A DNA stretch of 64,000 nucleotides from Clostridiaceae bacterium (GTDB lineage: Bacteria; Bacillota; Clostridia; Peptostreptococcales; Natronincolaceae). A program made the translations under genes and the position numbers. Position 1 is the stretch's first letter. Every line of letters begins with the position of its first letter. The notes under the pieces were generated by a model that was not told the DNA's origin, made no database searches, and was given only the letters and a program-made list of their open reading frames with translations. Shown piece by piece: positions 5,233 to 55,902 of the stretch. The stretch lies in the NCBI GenBank assembly GCA_020832135.1, contig JAFIFG010000123.1, positions 1-64,000 on the forward strand, in the 5' to 3' direction.

Positions 5233-6030
5233 ATGAAAATGGAGACTAAGAGAGAACTACGTAATGAAAGAAAAGTCTTTATAAGAAAAGTAAGAAGAAC
5301 TATAACTCTTGTATTTTTTGTTGTGGTTTTTTTATTATGGAATACTTATTATTTATTACAATCTGATTTTTTAAATCTTGAAGAAATTAACGTAAAGCAA
5401 AATACAGAGTTAGCAGAAGAAGAAATCATTGAAGCATCGAGGCTGATTACCAACAGGAATATATTACAATATAATTTATCAGAGATAGAAGATAACTTAA
5501 AAACCCACCCCTATATAAAAGATGCACAAGTAACTAGAAAACTTCCTAGAACCATCACGATAACAGTGGCAGAAAGAGAAAAGTATGCTATAATACCATA
5601 TATGGGATCCTATATTTATATTGATCAAGATAAAGTGGTTTTGGAAGCCTATAGTGGCGGGTTGATAGAGGGATTGCCCTTAGTAACAGCCGTAGAATTC
5701 AACAGCTTTAAGGTAGGAGAAAAAATAGATATAGCCAACTACCATCTCCTAGACAAGGTTATGGAATTGATCCAGGTGGCAAAGGAAATGGAAATTATAG
5801 AAATGATTTCAGAAATAAATATGGGTGATGAGAACAATATAAAGTTAATGACCTTTGATGGTGTGGAGGTTTTATTGGGACAAACAGTAGATCCTATATA
5901 CTCTATGGTGGCATTGAAGGAAATATTAATTAACTTATATGCAAGGGATATGAAAAATGTTGTTGTAGATATGCGTTATGAAGGTCAGATATCTGTTGGT
6001 ACTAGAAATCAGTGGGAGGAAAATCAATGA
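5233..6030 (+). CDS. divIB: Cell division protein DivIB/FtsQ
   Basis: Bitopic septal protein with a short basic cytoplasmic tail, one membrane helix at about residues 20-40, then an extracytoplasmic POTRA domain (LEEINVKQNTELAEEEI region) and FtsQ/DivIB domain ending near residue 250. It stabilises the FtsL-DivIC complex at the division site. Two ATG codons compete: 5233 and 5239. The AAGGTAGG site at 5224-5230 is better spaced for 5239, so the true protein may be two residues shorter. The stop overlaps the next gene start as ATGA. Confidence 0.9.
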   Translation: MKMETKRELRNERKVFIRKVRRTITLVFFVVVFLLWNTYYLLQSDFLNLEEINVKQNTELAEEEIIEASRLITNRNILQYNLSEIEDNLKTHPYIKDAQVTRKLPRTITITVAEREKYAIIPYMGSYIYIDQDKVVLEAYSGGLIEGLPLVTAVEFNSFKVGEKIDIANYHLLDKVMELIQVAKEMEIIEMISEINMGDENNIKLMTFDGVEVLLGQTVDPIYSMVALKEILINLYARDMKNVVVDMRYEGQISVGTRNQWEENQ

Positions 6031-6755
6031 ATTTCAAGGGAAAATTAGCTATTGGATTGCTTTGTGGTATATTAGGATTAACTATTTCTATGCAACTTAA
6101 TACAGTAAGAGATACCACAGGTGGTGGTTTCCTGTCTACCCAAAGAGCTCAACAGCTTTCTGTAGAATTAAAGAACTTAAGAAATGATAGAGAGCGACTA
6201 AATGAAGAACTTACAACGTTAGAAAAACGTCTAAGGGAATATGAAATTTCTGAAGCAGACGAAAACCTTATCATAAAAAACCTAAAAAGAGACCTTGAAA
6301 GATATCAATTACTAGCGGGACATGTTGAGGGGGAAGGACCTGGAGTAATTATAAGTATAGATGATTCCAAGGAACATGAATTTTTAGGGGGAGAAGGAAG
6401 CTTCCTTATGTATAATTATGATGTAATACTGGAAATTATTAACCAATTGAATGCAGCAGGTGCTGAAGCGATAGCTATTAATGATCAAAGATATACATCT
6501 GTTACGGAAGTTTACTACAGCTCCAACACTGTGCTTATTAATGGTGTGCCTACTAGACCCCCATTTGTTATTAAAGCCATAGGCAACCCTGAAACCTTGG
6601 AGGCGGCTTTGAATCTACGTTATGGTGTTGTTTGGGGTATGAGAAATTATTATAATCTACAGGTGAGTATAAGGAAAGAAGATAGGATAGAAATCCCTAG
6701 ACATAATAGACCTATTAACTATCAGTATGCTAGACCCATTGAATCTCCACAATAG
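6027..6755 (+). CDS. DUF881 family protein, first copy
   Basis: A 242 aa protein of the DUF881 (YlxW/YlxX-like) family found in division clusters of Gram-positive bacteria. It has an N-terminal membrane helix (about residues 5-23), a coiled-coil stretch (about 40-95) and a conserved C-terminal domain with GPGVIISIDDS and AGAEAIAINDQR. ATG 6027 is preceded by GGGAGG and overlaps the divIB stop. The molecular function is unknown; location suggests an extracytoplasmic envelope role at division. The next gene is a paralogue with the same layout. Confidence 0.88.
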   Translation: MNFKGKLAIGLLCGILGLTISMQLNTVRDTTGGGFLSTQRAQQLSVELKNLRNDRERLNEELTTLEKRLREYEISEADENLIIKNLKRDLERYQLLAGHVEGEGPGVIISIDDSKEHEFLGGEGSFLMYNYDVILEIINQLNAAGAEAIAINDQRYTSVTEVYYSSNTVLINGVPTRPPFVIKAIGNPETLEAALNLRYGVVWGMRNYYNLQVSIRKEDRIEIPRHNRPINYQYARPIESPQ

Positions 6756-46267: not shown

Positions 46268-46570
46268 GTACTTCCCTTCTTTCTTTTATAATATGTTCAT
46301 AAAATATACCCTTAAGTTAGAGTTGATAACTTAATAGTTTACATATAGTATTTATTTACAATAGTACTTATTATATATACTACTTTAGAAAAACTTATAT
46401 ATCTTTATAATTCCATAACAAATATTCTCCCACGCTTTGGTAACAGTTAACAACAAGGATTTTTTTGATGATTTTAAGCACAAGAAGTTAACAGTTTTCT
46501 ATAATGTAGTAGAAGATAAAGAAATAATTTAATGATATCTAGATGAAATAGGTAGGGAAGGGGAGGGACC
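46268..46570. other. AT-rich upstream region of two divergent genes
   Basis: This 303-base stretch between the amidase (leftward) and the selenoprotein gene (rightward) is AT-rich with several TTAACAGTT-like repeats near 46440-46500 (AACAGTTAACAACAAGG and GTTAACAGTTTTCTATAATG). A TATAAT at about 46500 may be a -10 element, but no good -35 lies 17 bases upstream. No gene is visible. Confidence 0.4.
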
Positions 46571-46816
46571 ATGAAAAAAGTTTCTGCAACAAACTATAGT
46601 ATCAATAACACCAAGGATAATCTTACTATTGATACGAACAACATAAAAAGTTGCTGACACGCCTATATGACCCCCTCGGTTGAGGTGGGTATACCGAAGG
46701 AGCTAGCAGACTTTCAAGTCTACCAGATAGAAGGTGTTACTGTCTATTTGCATAAAAACATTGCCTATAATAAAGGGTGGCTTACTATGTATGTGGAGGA
46801 TTATTTAAATAGATAA
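46571..46816 (+). CDS. Small selenoprotein with Cys-Sec pair (CC/Se-motif type), UGA read as Sec
   Basis: The frame from ATG 46571, behind a strong GGGGAGGGACC ribosome site, reads 28 codons to ...NNIKSC, then TGA at 46655-46657, and continues open in the same frame for 52 codons to TAA at 46814. The second part is clearly protein-like: HAYMTPSVEVGIPKEL, then FQVYQIEGVTVYLHKNI and a final LTMYVEDYLNR. A Cys directly before the TGA and a glycine-rich C-terminal beta pattern match my memory of a small redox-type family in which the pair is either CC or C-Sec. A GGUU-loop hairpin starts 12 bases after the TGA, in the position of a bacterial SECIS. The full protein would be 81 aa with Sec at residue 29. 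Its role is unknown; selD, selA and selB are not in this window. A stop-codon mutation of a Cys-Cys ancestor is the main alternative. Confidence 0.75.
46670..46690 (+). promoter_or_regulatory. SECIS-like stem-loop after the in-frame UGA
   Basis: ACCC and CCTC pair with GAGG and GGGT, eight base pairs in all, with T46686 bulged on the 3' side and apical loop GGTT. The loop begins 20 bases after the UGA; in E. coli fdhF the GGUCU loop begins 18 bases after. The apical GGU resembles the SelB-binding loop, although the bulged U of fdhF lies on the other arm. Confidence 0.6.
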
Positions 46817-46889
46817 CATACGCTGATTTAGGAAGTCATAGAGAAATCTGTAGTCCAAAGAATAGATTACAGATTTCTCTATGGAAATA

Positions 46890-48194: not shown

Positions 48195-49229
48195 ATGATT
48201 AATACACTTAAGGATTTTCTTAGAGGTTACAGAAAATCTATGATTTCCCTAGATGAGATAGCTAGTATATTTCCAGGAAATGTAGAATATATAGAGTTCG
48301 CAAAAATTATTCAACAGTTGACAGAGGAGGGGGTATTAAAACCAGTTAAAAAGCATGGGGTTAACAGTGGTGTTTTACCGCTACACTATACCTATAGGAT
48401 TTTGAAGGGGAATCTAAGAAAAGAGGTAAATGAGGAGATTAAAAAATATAACCTTCAAATACATTCAGAAATTAACTTGGAGCCTTATTTTCATCTAGGT
48501 GAAGAGCAGTGGGACAAGGATCTGCCTTATATATTAAAAATAGATAGTGCTATTAAGGAAAGAGGCATCACTTACTTTCAAAACAAATCTACACCGGAGG
48601 TATCCTTTCTTTTACTGGGGGATGAAAAGTGGATTGAAGAAAAACAGGGAAGGAAAGTATTAGAGAGGATTTCATTATTAGAGAAACTTCAATTAGCCGG
48701 GAAAGCAGACCCTCTTATGTTTGCAGTAGATCCTAATAAATTAGCAGAAAAAGAGCATAAGCATCTTATTGTAGAAAACAAAACGCCTTTCTATAGTCTT
48801 ATGGAGGACCTACAACAAAGTCCATTTACAACAGTGGTTTATGGATGTGGATGGAAGATTGCCTCTAATGTAAATATGTTACCAGTACAGTTGGGCTTGA
48901 AAGATTGTGAAAATACATATCTCTATTTTGGAGACCTAGATTTAGAGGGTATCAGTATATGGTATTTTCTGTATGAGAAATATAACATAAAATTAGCCTT
49001 GCCCTTTTATAAAGCAATGCTATCAAAAGAGTATGCTATAGGGAAGGAAACCCAGAGAAAAAATGATAAAGCAATTGCTGCCTTTAAAACCCACTTTTCC
49101 TTGAAGGAACAAGGGAAAGTGCAGGTGCTTTTAGATGTGAAAGGATATTATCCCCAGGAATCCTTAAGTCAGCAGGAATTGATAACAATTTGGAGGGAAT
49201 ACCGATGGAAGAAAGAATACATCAAATAA
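48195..49229 (+). CDS. jetD: Wadjet nuclease subunit JetD (DUF2220, TOPRIM)
   Basis: The 344 aa protein has an N-terminal winged-helix-like part (about 1-110) and a C-terminal TOPRIM fold: catalytic Glu194 in VENKTPFYSL and Asp247/Asp249 in FGDLDLEGISIW. JetD is the topoisomerase VI-like nuclease that cuts plasmid DNA after the JetABC SMC complex has extruded it. AAGAAGGTGAAG precedes ATG 48195. It is first in the operon and overlaps jetA by 25 bases. Confidence 0.9.
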   Translation: MINTLKDFLRGYRKSMISLDEIASIFPGNVEYIEFAKIIQQLTEEGVLKPVKKHGVNSGVLPLHYTYRILKGNLRKEVNEEIKKYNLQIHSEINLEPYFHLGEEQWDKDLPYILKIDSAIKERGITYFQNKSTPEVSFLLLGDEKWIEEKQGRKVLERISLLEKLQLAGKADPLMFAVDPNKLAEKEHKHLIVENKTPFYSLMEDLQQSPFTTVVYGCGWKIASNVNMLPVQLGLKDCENTYLYFGDLDLEGISIWYFLYEKYNIKLALPFYKAMLSKEYAIGKETQRKNDKAIAAFKTHFSLKEQGKVQVLLDVKGYYPQESLSQQELITIWREYRWKKEYIK

Positions 49230-50710
49230 CAGCCTTTTATAAAGATCGTATAAAGAGGATAGCTCTACTGGATCCCTTGTATGACCTTAAAAGAAAAAGT
49301 GGCAAGGATAGAAAAGACAATCCTATTGATTATTTTGGCTTAGGGTTATTATCATTACTATTTTTCTTTGAAAATATGTTGATGAGGAATAAAAAGACAG
49401 GGGTAAGAGAACTGGCAAATTTCTTGTATGAGCTTAATCAAGGAGAAATGGAGCTGGAGGAGGAAGGTTACGACAAGGTTGCTAGAGAGATTTTACAAGT
49501 TTTTCGTCCCACCAGTGGAAAAAGAAATTATAGGGCCTTTTATAATTGGGAAACACGTCAAGATGAGACGGTTTTTTACTCCATTATTAAAGCCCACCAA
49601 TTCGATTCCAAAACCAACACACAGTATTATATACTTGATGAAGATGGTTTAGAGCTTATTTTTTCTACGAAGGAGTATTTTTCAGAATTACACCTTTCTA
49701 TTAATCAGTTGGTATTAAGAAAGCAATTGGAAAAAGGTGAGTTTGTGGGGGCTTTACGCCAAATAGATGAAATGAGGATGGATGTAGAGAATCTATATCA
49801 CCAAATAAATAGAATTAAGCATGAGATACAAAGAAATATTATTTCTGATGAAGCCTATGAAAGATATAAGAACATTGTGGAGGATATTCATTTTCGTCTA
49901 ACGAGAGAAAATGAAGAATTTGATGAATTAAGAAATTTTATTGTAAAAACCAAAGATATACTAAGTAAAGAAGCACATCAAGAGAAGGAGCGAAGGGCCT
50001 ATTATCTTATCCTTCAAATAGATCAAGAATTGGGAGCAGTCCATTATGAACATAGGAAACTATTGGAGGAGAGTATTCTTTTAAAGACTACAGCCCTTAT
50101 AGCTGCTCAGGAATCGCTATATTATGTAGGAATCGACTCCTTTAATTACCATGATGAAATTACCAATCGTTTATTTTCTTCGCCTCTACCAGTGGAGGCC
50201 TCAAGACAACTGATTGAACCTATACTACACCTTCAGCACAGTACTTCGTGGTCCCCCATGACGGTTTTTGCAAAGCAGAGGATAGAAAAGAATCAAGAGG
50301 AAAAAACCAATACATTCTTACAACCTTTAAGTGAAGAAGAACTATCAAAAATGAATTACATAAGACAGCAAAACTATAAAGCTACTATGGAAGTAATCCT
50401 AAAGGCATTGGGAGAGAAGGGCAGTATCACTGTAGAAGAGGTAGTAGACTTTGTAAAGAAGGAGAACTATGATGCTATTTTGCACCAGAGATTCTTCTAT
50501 GATTTTTGGATATTACTGCATCAGAAGGCTCCTATTGTATTGAGTAAGGAAGAGGAACAACAGGGCTCATTAATGGAGGCAATGGGGCTCATAGCCAAAG
50601 ATATAACTACCATCACCGTAGTAGAGAAAGAAGAAATTGTAGAAGCCACAGATAGATATACCATTAAAAACATGGAATTACGATTGGAGGCAGAAGATCA
50701 TGTTATATGA
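49205..50710 (+). CDS. jetA: Wadjet kleisin-like subunit JetA
   Basis: A 501 aa protein of the JetA/DUF5716 type; in Wadjet this is the kleisin that bridges the two SMC heads and holds JetB. The middle (about 170-330) is heptad-rich and the ends form winged-helix-type folds. ATG 49205 is chosen because GGAGGG lies just before it, giving MEERIHQITAFYKDRI; a TTG 15 bases earlier is part of that site. It overlaps both flanking genes, so the four are translated as a unit. Confidence 0.85.
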   Translation: MEERIHQITAFYKDRIKRIALLDPLYDLKRKSGKDRKDNPIDYFGLGLLSLLFFFENMLMRNKKTGVRELANFLYELNQGEMELEEEGYDKVAREILQVFRPTSGKRNYRAFYNWETRQDETVFYSIIKAHQFDSKTNTQYYILDEDGLELIFSTKEYFSELHLSINQLVLRKQLEKGEFVGALRQIDEMRMDVENLYHQINRIKHEIQRNIISDEAYERYKNIVEDIHFRLTRENEEFDELRNFIVKTKDILSKEAHQEKERRAYYLILQIDQELGAVHYEHRKLLEESILLKTTALIAAQESLYYVGIDSFNYHDEITNRLFSSPLPVEASRQLIEPILHLQHSTSWSPMTVFAKQRIEKNQEEKTNTFLQPLSEEELSKMNYIRQQNYKATMEVILKALGEKGSITVEEVVDFVKKENYDAILHQRFFYDFWILLHQKAPIVLSKEEEQQGSLMEAMGLIAKDITTITVVEKEEIVEATDRYTIKNMELRLEAEDHVI

Positions 50711-51443
50711 AGAGGAAAATATAATACAGGCCTTTAAAATATATACAAAATTGGCCTTAAATGGTGAGTCGGATAAGGATAGTCTACGGATGTATATGGC
50801 GGATGATACCGTAAGGGGGTTGGTGGATCAGTTTGTAAAAGAAGTGGATTGTACTACCTTTTTAGCAGGGGAAAAAATCTATATGGTGCCACTTTCAATG
50901 ACTTCTCCTTTCCATGTAGCTAATGAAGAGCTAAAACAAAAATATCTGCCTACTAGGGCTGTAAATATGGATTTATATATGATGTATATAACGATTATTA
51001 TTTTATTTGGGGAATTTTACGATAGCTATCAGACAATGGAACCCACAAGGGATTTTATTCAAATGGAACATTGGCTTAATTGTGTAAATGAAAAAATGAA
51101 TAGTATAAAGGACCATGATCAGGAACAATTAAAGCTTTTAGAGGAGGAGTACGAATATAACTGGATAGCTATTGTGGAAAAATGGGATGCTATGGATGAT
51201 ATAAAGGAGAAGGTGCAGCAGACTGCTAGAACTGTCAGTCGTATGAGCTTTTTAAATAGTGTGAAAAATTTTTTGGTTCAGCAACAATTAATCTATGAAA
51301 TGGGTAATGATGAAGTGAATTTAACGGAAAAGGCGAAAATTATTATCCAAAGGTACTATATGGAGCAGGAGTTTAATAGAGGAATCTTGGAGTTTATTTA
51401 TAATATGGAAAGAAGGAAGAAGGAGGAAATAGAAAATGCCTAG
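50700..51443 (+). CDS. jetB: Wadjet accessory subunit JetB (DUF6063-like)
   Basis: A 247 aa protein that overlaps jetA by 11 bases and jetC by 8. It matches the expected size and position of JetB, the KITE-like dimer (two winged helices) that stabilises the kleisin. Visible parts: an N-terminal winged-helix-like stretch (about 1-90) and a C-terminal one (about 170-230) separated by a helical linker. GGAGGCAGAAGATC precedes ATG 50700. The family name is from memory and less certain than the role given by context. Confidence 0.82.
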   Translation: MLYEEENIIQAFKIYTKLALNGESDKDSLRMYMADDTVRGLVDQFVKEVDCTTFLAGEKIYMVPLSMTSPFHVANEELKQKYLPTRAVNMDLYMMYITIIILFGEFYDSYQTMEPTRDFIQMEHWLNCVNEKMNSIKDHDQEQLKLLEEEYEYNWIAIVEKWDAMDDIKEKVQQTARTVSRMSFLNSVKNFLVQQQLIYEMGNDEVNLTEKAKIIIQRYYMEQEFNRGILEFIYNMERRKKEEIENA

Positions 51444-54400
51444 TATCTCTAAAATTCGATTTACTAATGTAATTTATGAAAATGGAGAAAAAAGATATAA
51501 TGATGATTTGTTTGAATTTCAGGGATACAATGGAGCCATTCTTCTAGAAAATGGAGGAGGAAAGACGGTTTTTATACAGACGGCCCTTCAAGCTATTTTG
51601 CCCCATGCAGATTTAGGGGAAAGAAAGATTAAAGAAACCCTATCTCTAGAGGGGACTACTAGTCATATTGCTATTGAATGGATTCTAAATGACAGACCTA
51701 GAAAATATGCTCTAACTGCAGTAACCTTATTTATGACGCCAAAGGGCATAGGTTCTTATCGCTATGCCTATGATTATAGCACTGGAGATAAACATGCTAT
51801 TGAAAATATCCCCTTTGTTAAAAAAGGAGAAGGTGGAAGCATAAGACCCAGTAGCAAAGGGGAAATCCAAGAGTATTATCAAGTGATGCAACAACAAAAG
51901 ATGAGTGCCCATACATTTGAAACGATTAAGGGTTATCACGAATATATAGAAAAAAATTTCCAGATTATTGCTTCAGAGTGGAATAGTATTGCTAGAATTA
52001 ATGGAGCAGAAGGAGATGTAGAAAAATTCTTTGAAGGTTGTAAAAATACTACACAGCTAGTGGATCATTTATTGATTCCTGTAGTAGAAGAAGCTCTAGA
52101 AGGTGGAGGTACTGACGATTTTGCACAGATTTTTCAAAAACAAAGAGAGCACTTTAAAAAGCACAAGCAGTTAAGGACACGAATAGAAGAAAGTAAAAGG
52201 GTAGAGGCTGAAATCAATAGCTATGTGGCCATGCTAACGGACCTTCATCAATTAGAGACGGAAATGCTAAAAAGAAAAGGAGAAATAAAGGGTATCTATA
52301 GCTTACTGCAAATAAGCAGAGAAGAAAATAGGGGAGCAATGGAGGAAAACAATCAATTATTACAACGGTTAATAGCATCAGAAACGGAGTACGAAAAAAA
52401 GAAGGCATCCTATGATTTGGCACTTTTAAAAAGAGCCCTAAAGGAGGCTAAAGAAGCTTTTGAAGAAATAAATAATGAATATGTAGAGATAAAAGAAGAG
52501 CATCAAGAAAAAGAAATTTACATACAAAATCTAGAAGTTGCAGAATTAAAAAAAATTATCAAGGAAAAGAAGGAAGCTATAGACCTGCTGAATGAGAAAA
52601 TAGCGATGCTGGAAGCGGATGAAGAGGTAGAGATTTTACAGGAAAAACTACGGGAAAATAGTAATAATCTAAAGGGGTATTTTGTAGATCGGTTAGAGAA
52701 AATTGAAAAGGATTTAATGAATTTAGAAGGACAAAAAAAGCGATATACTCTAGAGCTTGAGGAGATGAAGGAGAGAAGAAAAGAGCTGGAAAAATCCAGA
52801 AGAATTATAGAGGCGGAGGATACCGGCTTAACTACGGAAATAAATGTTTTCACAAGACAATTAGGGGATATTGAAAAAGAAATATTAGATCATCCACTGC
52901 AGGAAAAGGTGGAGGAAGAATACGAAAAGTGGCAAAAACGTGCTATTGCTATTCAAGAATTAAATACAGTATATCAGAGACAATTAAGAGAAAGGGTGGA
53001 GGAGGAAGGGAAACTACAGGAAAGAATAATAGCCTTCGAAGAGACCCTTCAACAATTTAAAAAAGAAGAAATAGAAAAGGATAAAGATCTAACAGTACTA
53101 CAGCAAAAGCATGATACATTGTTATTGAAGCTAAAGGAAGTACAGGGTAATTGGAATTTTGTAGAATCCCTTTATATAAAGGAAGCAACTATAGTACCTT
53201 TCCTAGAAGAAAAACAGGAAAAATTACGCCTAGAAAAAGAGGATTTAATTTGTCAGGAAGGCCGTAGTAATAGGCTACTAGATGCTTATGAAGGACACCA
53301 TTACTTTACGGCAGAACCATTGATAGAAGAATGGGTAAAAAACTGGCAAGGACAATTTAAACTATTGGAGGTAGGGAATGAATATTTAGCCCATGCTGCT
53401 AAAGTATCAGGCGGAACACTAGATGAGCTTTTTGAAAAATTTCCCCTTTGGGCCTCAGCAATAGTTACTTCAGAGGGTGAAGTGCAGAAACTAAAGGAAA
53501 AAATCCAGCATCAATCAGAAAAATTAACTTCTCCAGTATTAATTTTATCAGAAAAGGAAGCCAGTATTATTATTAAAGAAGGAGAGGAAGTACAAGAAAG
53601 ATATGTATTCCCTATAGCCTGGAAAAATAATGTGGATGGAACTCGGTTTAAGAAATGGCAGGAAAAGCTTAAGGAAATGGCAGAAGCATCAAATGCACAT
53701 AGAATGAATAAAGAAAAAGAATTGTATTATTGGAGCCAATTATTAAAGGAAGTTCAGGATTTCTATGAAACTTATCCTAATGAATACTATACCAGTACTA
53801 CCAATGATTTTCGAAACCTAAGGGATAAAATTTATGAAACAGAAAAAAGTTTAAAGGAAATAAAGCATAGCTCTAAAGATTTACTAAAGCAAATAGAGGA
53901 CTTGAAAAATAAGCTTCATGAAATTGAACTTGAAGAAAATCACTTGGGTGGTAGAATTGGGAGAGGACAGGTGTATTTCAATATCATAGATAAAAGGAAG
54001 CAACTAAGTTCTCATAGGCTGAAGGTACAGCAGCAATTAGAGGAAAAGAAAAATGAGATTATAGATATAGAAAAGAGCATCGAGAATCATAGAAGCATTA
54101 TTTATGAGGAAGAGGGTCTAGAAAATAAAATTTGGAAAATAAAGGAACAAAAGCAAACTTGCTTAAGGGACCCAATATATTTAGAGGTGCAAGAAGCTAG
54201 TGTTTCCTATAGTAACATATCTCTTATTGGATTAAAAGAGGAAAGAGAAATGTTAAAGGATCAGTTGGAGAAAAAACAAGAGGGAAGAGCTAATTTAGAG
54301 GATCGTTTACAGCATAGAACAAATGAGAAACAGGAGAAGGAAAAAGAACTTATAAGAAAAAAGAAACAAGCAAAGTATCCTATTGATGAGGAAGTAGTAT

Positions 54401-55902
54401 TTCCCATAGATGGAGAAGACCTGCTGGAGCAACTGACCCAAAGAGAGGTTTTACTAAGAGATACACTACAGGAATTAGAACCCCGGTGTAAAAGTAAGGA
54501 GAAGCAATATGAAAAGCAAAAAAATAAATTAGAGTTAAGAGAAGGTGACTTTTACAATAAATTTGATACTGTTTTAGAATTTACCATGATGCTGGAGGAA
54601 GTCAAAGAGGAATTGCAACAGGAAAAAGAGGAAATACAAAAACATAGAATCCACTTGGAAAAAACAAAAGGGAGACTGGAAAAAGAAGAAGAAGAGCTTC
54701 AAGGGATTTTACGGCAGTTAGAGATGAAGAATGAAAAATATGAATACTTAGTAGAGGGTATAGAAGTCTTAGTACTGACAGAAGAAATAAAGCAGGACTT
54801 ACCTTATAAAAGAAAAAGTATTGTTGAAAATCTAATAAGTGAATTAGAAAAATTATTTGAATTAGTGGAAAAAGAAAAAATCAAAAAAGAAAAATTAAAA
54901 AATAAATTTATACAATTTTGTAACAATAGCATTAAAGACGTAAGGCTTAGGGAGATGGCTGTTGTAGGGATTGAAAATAAGGCTGTCTATGGAGATATTT
55001 TAGACTGGCAAAAGAATATGAATAAGAGGATTTTAAGAACCATTGAAATTATTGAAAATGACATGAAGGAGCATGATAGACAGCTTAATCAGTTTATTCA
55101 TTTCCTCCATACTTACTTAGCTACTATTGCACAGGAACTAAAGCTGATTCCTAAAAACACAAGGGTAAAGATAGAGGATCAATGGAAGGAAATATTTCAA
55201 TTTACTATTCCCGTATGGCAAGAGTTGGAGGGAAAAGAGGAGCTAAGAAAATATATAGATTGGATGTTAGGAAAATTAGAGGATGATGAGTACAAGGACG
55301 ATGAAGGAAATGAAAATGAAGGTGCAGTAAAAAAATCTATCGAGAGATGGCTACAAATTAAACAGTTGTTAAAGGTGGTCATGAAGGATCAGATCATAAA
55401 GGTGAAATGTCGAAAGGTAACGAATGATAATAAAGTAAGTAATATGTTTTTTACTTGGGATCATTCTAATCAATGGTCTGGAGGAGAAAAGTGGAGTAAG
55501 AATATGGCACTTTTTCTTGGTATTTTAAATTATGTAGCGGAGAAGAAGCAAGGTCCTAGAGGAAATCAAATAAAAGGGAGAACTGTCATCCTAGACAATC
55601 CTTTTGGTAAAGCCTCTAGTGATCACGTATTAACTCCTGTATTTTTTATAGCAGAGCAATTAGGGTTTCAATTTATTGCACTAACAGCCCATGCGGACGG
55701 TAAATTCATAAGTGATTTTTTCCCAGTGGTCTATAGCTGTAAACTAAGGAAAACACAAAACGGTGATTCATCAATTTTCACAAAGGAAAAGAAGCTGCAA
55801 TATGCTTTTTTCAAAGACAAGGATCCTATTGTGTTAGAACGAATAGGGGAACAGGAACAGATTGATATCTTTGATTTAGAGGATCTGATTGCAGGAGTAT
55901 AG
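51436..55902 (+). CDS. jetC: Wadjet SMC-like ATPase JetC
   Basis: A 1488 aa SMC-like motor protein. Walker A is ENGGGKT at residues 38-44; two long coiled coils (about 230-560 and 770-1190) flank a hinge-like middle region; the ABC signature WSGGEKWS is at about residue 1347 and Walker B TVILDNPFG near 1387. JetC with JetA and JetB extrudes plasmid DNA loops. The Walker B Asp is followed by Asn instead of the usual catalytic Glu. It overlaps jetB and is followed by a terminator. The C-terminal end (about 1390-1488) contains the D-loop SSDHVLTPVFF. Confidence 0.92.
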   Translation: MPSISKIRFTNVIYENGEKRYNDDLFEFQGYNGAILLENGGGKTVFIQTALQAILPHADLGERKIKETLSLEGTTSHIAIEWILNDRPRKYALTAVTLFMTPKGIGSYRYAYDYSTGDKHAIENIPFVKKGEGGSIRPSSKGEIQEYYQVMQQQKMSAHTFETIKGYHEYIEKNFQIIASEWNSIARINGAEGDVEKFFEGCKNTTQLVDHLLIPVVEEALEGGGTDDFAQIFQKQREHFKKHKQLRTRIEESKRVEAEINSYVAMLTDLHQLETEMLKRKGEIKGIYSLLQISREENRGAMEENNQLLQRLIASETEYEKKKASYDLALLKRALKEAKEAFEEINNEYVEIKEEHQEKEIYIQNLEVAELKKIIKEKKEAIDLLNEKIAMLEADEEVEILQEKLRENSNNLKGYFVDRLEKIEKDLMNLEGQKKRYTLELEEMKERRKELEKSRRIIEAEDTGLTTEINVFTRQLGDIEKEILDHPLQEKVEEEYEKWQKRAIAIQELNTVYQRQLRERVEEEGKLQERIIAFEETLQQFKKEEIEKDKDLTVLQQKHDTLLLKLKEVQGNWNFVESLYIKEATIVPFLEEKQEKLRLEKEDLICQEGRSNRLLDAYEGHHYFTAEPLIEEWVKNWQGQFKLLEVGNEYLAHAAKVSGGTLDELFEKFPLWASAIVTSEGEVQKLKEKIQHQSEKLTSPVLILSEKEASIIIKEGEEVQERYVFPIAWKNNVDGTRFKKWQEKLKEMAEASNAHRMNKEKELYYWSQLLKEVQDFYETYPNEYYTSTTNDFRNLRDKIYETEKSLKEIKHSSKDLLKQIEDLKNKLHEIELEENHLGGRIGRGQVYFNIIDKRKQLSSHRLKVQQQLEEKKNEIIDIEKSIENHRSIIYEEEGLENKIWKIKEQKQTCLRDPIYLEVQEASVSYSNISLIGLKEEREMLKDQLEKKQEGRANLEDRLQHRTNEKQEKEKELIRKKKQAKYPIDEEVVFPIDGEDLLEQLTQREVLLRDTLQELEPRCKSKEKQYEKQKNKLELREGDFYNKFDTVLEFTMMLEEVKEELQQEKEEIQKHRIHLEKTKGRLEKEEEELQGILRQLEMKNEKYEYLVEGIEVLVLTEEIKQDLPYKRKSIVENLISELEKLFELVEKEKIKKEKLKNKFIQFCNNSIKDVRLREMAVVGIENKAVYGDILDWQKNMNKRILRTIEIIENDMKEHDRQLNQFIHFLHTYLATIAQELKLIPKNTRVKIEDQWKEIFQFTIPVWQELEGKEELRKYIDWMLGKLEDDEYKDDEGNENEGAVKKSIERWLQIKQLLKVVMKDQIIKVKCRKVTNDNKVSNMFFTWDHSNQWSGGEKWSKNMALFLGILNYVAEKKQGPRGNQIKGRTVILDNPFGKASSDHVLTPVFFIAEQLGFQFIALTAHADGKFISDFFPVVYSCKLRKTQNGDSSIFTKEKKLQYAFFKDKDPIVLERIGEQEQIDIFDLEDLIAGV

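Follow-up and report, generated by a model that had tools for sequence, protein, structure and literature searches.

Positions 46571 to 46816 of the window, by which we mean the whole 64,000-nucleotide stretch of contig JAFIFG010000123.1 from a Clostridiaceae bacterium, hold a small open frame interrupted by a single TGA, which raises the question of whether that codon ends a short peptide or specifies selenocysteine, and, in the latter case, what the resulting protein might do. A first-pass annotation made from the sequence alone had proposed a hidden selenoprotein gene here, and its description of the frame is exact to the nucleotide: ATG at 46571–46573, TGC at 46652–46654, TGA at 46655–46657, and a further 52 open codons to a TAA at 46814–46816. 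With TGA read as U, the product has 81 residues (MKKVSATNYSINNTKDNLTIDTNNIKSCUHAYMTPSVEVGIPKELADFQVYQIEGVTVYLHKNIAYNKGWLTMYVEDYLNR), among which Cys28 and Sec29 are the only Cys or Sec residues. The ribosome site claimed for it corresponds to a purine-rich tract, GGGGAGGG, immediately 5′ of the ATG. Downstream, the perfect inverted repeat listed in Table 1 lies between two convergent genes and is probably their shared terminator, although a scan for T-run terminators did not flag it. The frame is absent from the ordinary list of open reading frames (minimum 70 aa), and the chance that 52 codons stay open past a stop is about 8%, or (61/64)^52, which on its own is weak evidence. The frame rises above chance because of its homology, namely a match to a curated protein family and orthologues in eight other genomes that align at the TGA.

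Table 1. Coordinates of the selenoprotein gene, its signals and a further operon in the window.
Feature	Position	Strand	Basis
81-aa selenoprotein gene of the CC/Se motif family (NF041239), small 'CU' branch	46571–46816	+	Family match with TGA=U; eight orthologues; nine-member clade
Shine-Dalgarno-like purine tract before ATG	46556–46570	+	Direct reading
TGC-TGA, vicinal Cys28-Sec29 motif	46652–46657	+	Site is UGA or Cys family-wide; UGA forms track SelB
Predicted bacterial SECIS hairpin, ACCC-CCUC-GGUU-GAGG-[U]-GGGU	46670–46690	+	Fold; family covariation
Perfect 16-bp inverted repeat, arms 46837–46852 and 46868–46883	46837–46883	.	Direct reading
Complete JetD-JetA-JetB-JetC operon, Wadjet type III defence system	48195–55902	+	PADLOC

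Searched with TGA read as U, the protein matches NCBIfam model NF041239 (Moor_selen_rel, 'CC/Se motif family (seleno)protein') with 47.6 bits, above its curated cutoff of 40, over positions 9–78 of the 91 in the profile. Cys28-Sec29 forms the CC/Se motif, whose two columns are nearly invariant across the family when U is written as C. The small family in which Cys-Cys alternates with Cys-Sec, mentioned in the first-pass annotation, therefore exists as NF041239, and a 2026 selenoproteome review lists it as a 'hypothetical protein predicted in Moorella thermoacetica' (PMC13188914). Besides the motif, the window protein shares with the family its length and the conserved P and GIxVYxxK blocks; it differs in being short, with approximately 10 C-terminal residues missing, and in belonging to a branch that is CU throughout and was seen in a single GTDB family. 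The family is thus catalogued yet uncharacterised, and the window gene adds one more member. To call the gene 'hidden' is right for ordinary ORF calling, which misses the frame, but an up-to-date annotation pipeline may well call it, the family being already curated.

Members of the family are present in 86 of 198 relatives. Within the GTDB family of the window, eight further genomes each carry an orthologue of the small form whose TGA aligns with that of the window gene, and together with the latter these orthologues form a nine-member clade (support 99/94) in which all members are CU and no Cys version occurs. This bears on the simplest alternative, that the TGA is a true stop terminating a 28-aa peptide and that the remainder is a decaying remnant. 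An ordinary gene finder does halt at the TGA, and the protein is divergent, no relative exceeding 38% identity, but a decaying frame would hardly keep the same TGA in eight orthologues, and a search for similarity found the downstream half conserved, both in the NF041239 match and among the orthologues. In two same-genus pairs of small CU genes, nonsynonymous differences are fewer than synonymous on both sides of the TGA (downstream of it, pN 0.31 against pS 0.74 and pN 0.23 against pS 0.69), a comparison that is supportive only, synonymous sites being near saturation. The TGA is the sole internal stop in all matches listed but one, the exception carrying an extra TAA near the C-terminus. With the hairpin covariation and complete selenocysteine machinery described below, this evidence leaves a true stop very improbable. 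A UC member elsewhere (L061, genome G003, about 6001–6276) contains another in-frame TGA close to its C-terminal end (IISIUKLFKW), at a position occupied by S or A in its relatives; this perhaps marks an error or a pseudogene.

In the family at large, the motif site is occupied by CU, UC, CC or UU. Homologues ending at the TGA position would have spoken against selenocysteine; instead, they read through or carry Cys, and the Cys homologues looked for at the UGA position are found in CC forms such as L067 (KACCGTPSLPSV). Since L067 and L139 are CC forms inside CU clades, Sec and Cys have been swapped more than once, as judged from a tree built on few columns. One branch (L075, L086, L087, L088, L173 and L181–L188) carries two adjacent UGA codons, read as Sec-Sec, in all 13 genomes where it was found; a common hairpin follows both UGAs, SelB is present in 13/13 genomes, and a literature search for consecutive UGA-Sec codons surfaced no paper.

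Occurrence of the UGA form follows that of the decoding machinery. Among the matches listed, the TGA form occurs in 62 of 155 SelB-positive relatives against 2 of 43 SelB-negative ones (Fisher p 2e-6, uncorrected for kinship); the two SelB-negative genomes that have it are incomplete assemblies (79% and 63% complete), and the SelB-negative genomes G026 and G133 hold Cys forms only. The genome of the window itself has all four selenocysteine genes: selA (635 bits), selB (385 bits) and selD (392 bits) form one cluster on contig C50, and tRNA-Sec (selC) scores 72 bits. Two further copies of the family are present in this genome (L001 and L002), with one TGA each. Its selD also contains a UGA (SGGUAAK, L051 about 13764, minus strand).

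A hairpin is predicted shortly downstream of the UGA in the window gene, starting 12 nt past it, with the GGUU loop 20 nt past it and one bulged U at 46686. Its fold energy is ordinary (z −0.06) and its pairing register is shifted relative to the family consensus; because the energy alone is not unusual, the case for a SECIS element is made by covariation in the family. We examined 40 members with the same spacing at six pairs starting 15 nt past the UGA, and found pairing in 178 of 240 cells, where 2000 shuffles gave a mean of 147 and a maximum of 163. Covariation in 32 of the 40 members was 0.376 compared to 0.163, none of 500 shuffles scoring as high, and every slid register scored lower than the chosen one; pair 21–32, for example, occurs as AU, GC, UA, GU and UG. 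Nor is the hairpin due to protein conservation, since 22 Cys homologues at equal spacing pair in 38% of cells compared to 74% in the UGA members. In the two CC members nested in CU clades, L067 and L139, five of the six hairpin positions still pair, possibly as a relic SECIS. An Rfam search around the gene returned no selenium element, and a microRNA match on the other strand was taken as chance.

In many bacteria termination at UGA is leaky, and such leakiness would allow the codon to be read by near-cognate suppression as some other amino acid. The exchange of UGA for Cys among homologues, its co-occurrence with SelB and the SECIS-like hairpin all favour Sec instead, and suppression is, if anything, even less probable than a true stop. 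The Cys-UGA pair had been put forward as the mark of a selenoprotein, and the family match, the machinery, the UGA/Cys site and the family hairpin bear this out. We conclude that 46571–46816 is a real selenocysteine gene: Sec at the UGA is near certain, and selenocysteine insertion in this very gene is what we infer from the family and the genome.

For the protein itself, the evidence from profile comparison and from AlphaFold and Foldseek places the CC/Se family in the IscA/HesB (iron-sulphur carrier) fold. Pfam Fe-S_biosyn is matched by 18 of 82 family members (best E 1.6e-6, ranging up to 0.5), and the NCBIfam models IscA_HesB_Se and HesB_rel_seleno by 13 and 4 members respectively. When the family was aligned with HesB-like selenoproteins using hhalign (97.1%, E 6.8e-11), the Cys/Sec motif fell on the HesB Sec. 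The AlphaFold model of the paralogue from the same genome (pLDDT 88) returned structures of the IscA/YneR/SufA/AQ_1857/DsrR type as all of its top 11 PDB hits; the model of the window protein (pLDDT 73, the first 14 residues being unreliable) had YneR and SufA as its top two. By sequence, the window protein gave no significant match to PF01521, none to the TIGR01911 profile and nothing in the PDB, and a Pfam MMR_HSR1_Xtn match (E 0.045) was taken as chance.

These comparisons suggest that the window protein is a minimal, truncated IscA/HesB domain that lacks the C-terminal cysteines. It resembles the HesB-like selenoproteins of TIGR01911 in fold and motif position by profile alignment (97%) and in being UGA-encoded, but those proteins have UxGP and mostly a C-terminal Cys, where the window protein has Cys-Sec and UHAY. 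With IscA, SufA and ErpA (PF01521) it shares the predicted fold, and its Cys-Sec pair lies at the site of their first conserved Cys, yet a direct sequence match and the C-terminal CxC are both absent. In IscA, as its action is understood, three cysteines of a single chain hold the cluster, one internal and two in the C-terminal CxC; with only Cys28 and Sec29, the window protein cannot hold one in this manner. An iron-sulphur carrier role of the IscA/SufA kind would agree with the fold, but is unlikely given one Cys and one Sec only, and no iron-sulphur assembly genes were recognised beside the gene.

Genomic neighbourhoods provide a second indication of function. When neighbouring genes were clustered, ArsR-type regulators were found beside 7 of 9 UC and 3 of 4 UU loci, Acr3-like proteins beside 7 UC loci, ArsA-like proteins beside 5 UC and 3 UU, ArsD-like proteins beside 5 UC and 2 UU, and ArsC-like proteins beside 5 UC; these clusters include no CU or other examined locus. 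The UC paralogue from the same genome as the window is the second gene of an arsR-UC-arsC-acr3-arsD-arsA-arsA operon (L049 2081–6731, contig C118), in which the names arsR, acr3, arsD and arsA were checked by profile and the ArsC-like gene fell below cutoff. Profile checks of two UU loci recovered arsD, a SaoE/SO_0444-like permease below cutoff and an ArsE-type thioredoxin. Neighbour clustering of the small CU branch revealed neither conserved neighbours nor an ars operon, the common neighbours being confined to two closely similar locus pairs and to common receiver-domain, ABC-transporter and sensor-type proteins. The window gene would therefore be linked to arsenic by kinship only. Elsewhere, a CC-type member lies just ahead of a heavy-metal (copper-type) P-type ATPase gene (L060 6001–9311). 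Literature searches surfaced no paper on a selenoprotein in an ars operon, and none tying the CC/Se family to both the IscA/HesB fold and an arsenic or metal role; Haft and Gwadz 2023 and Haft and Tolstoy 2025 lay outside the search, and we do not claim priority.

The arsenite metallochaperone ArsD offers a functional analogy only: it too is small with vicinal thiols, and its gene lies next to those of the UC and UU relatives, but its sequence is unrelated to the window protein and the window gene does not adjoin arsD. That the selenoprotein instead acts purely in thiol-disulphide-type redox chemistry is a weaker possibility, though a more serious one than the iron-sulphur role. Cys-Sec pairs are typical of redox motifs, and the big-CU relatives L080 and L085 share a neighbouring frame of 534–550 aa with weak FAD/NAD-binding-type matches; on the other side, the Cys and Sec here are adjacent rather than in CxxU spacing, the fold is not that of thioredoxin, and related branches occupy arsenic and metal loci.

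Taken as a whole, the locus is with high probability explained by an 81-residue CC/Se selenoprotein with a SelB-read UGA, an IscA/HesB-like domain and a Cys28-Sec29 pair. SelB with Sec-tRNA would decode UGA 46655, aided by the hairpin downstream, giving a Cys-Sec pair at the position of the first conserved cysteine in IscA. The vicinal thiol and selenol might then bind a soft metal or metalloid, or cycle through a selenenylsulphide, with the protein acting on its own in buffering, as a chaperone or in redox chemistry, a role to which we would give somewhat less than an even chance. The earlier description, 'probably redox-active, of unknown role', is kept in so far as redox action stays among the options, and is sharpened to a Cys-Sec pair that binds metal(loid)s or acts in redox chemistry on an IscA/HesB-like scaffold. 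Such action is proposed for the family, and is extended to the window gene with reserve. More tentatively, the CC/Se family may comprise IscA-derived, selenium-based metal(loid) binders that carry CU, UC or UU pairs on a common scaffold, the UC and UU forms serving in arsenic or metal-efflux operons, the latter with two adjacent Sec residues, and the CU form of the window standing alone.

A recoded gene is confirmed where ordinary ORF calling splits the frame. The gene itself is ordinary in kind; it is the fold and the arsenic context of the family that are worth reporting. Since the paralogue from the same genome lies within an ars operon, an uncharacterised selenoprotein family gains, besides a likely IscA/HesB fold, a testable role in the handling of arsenic or metals.
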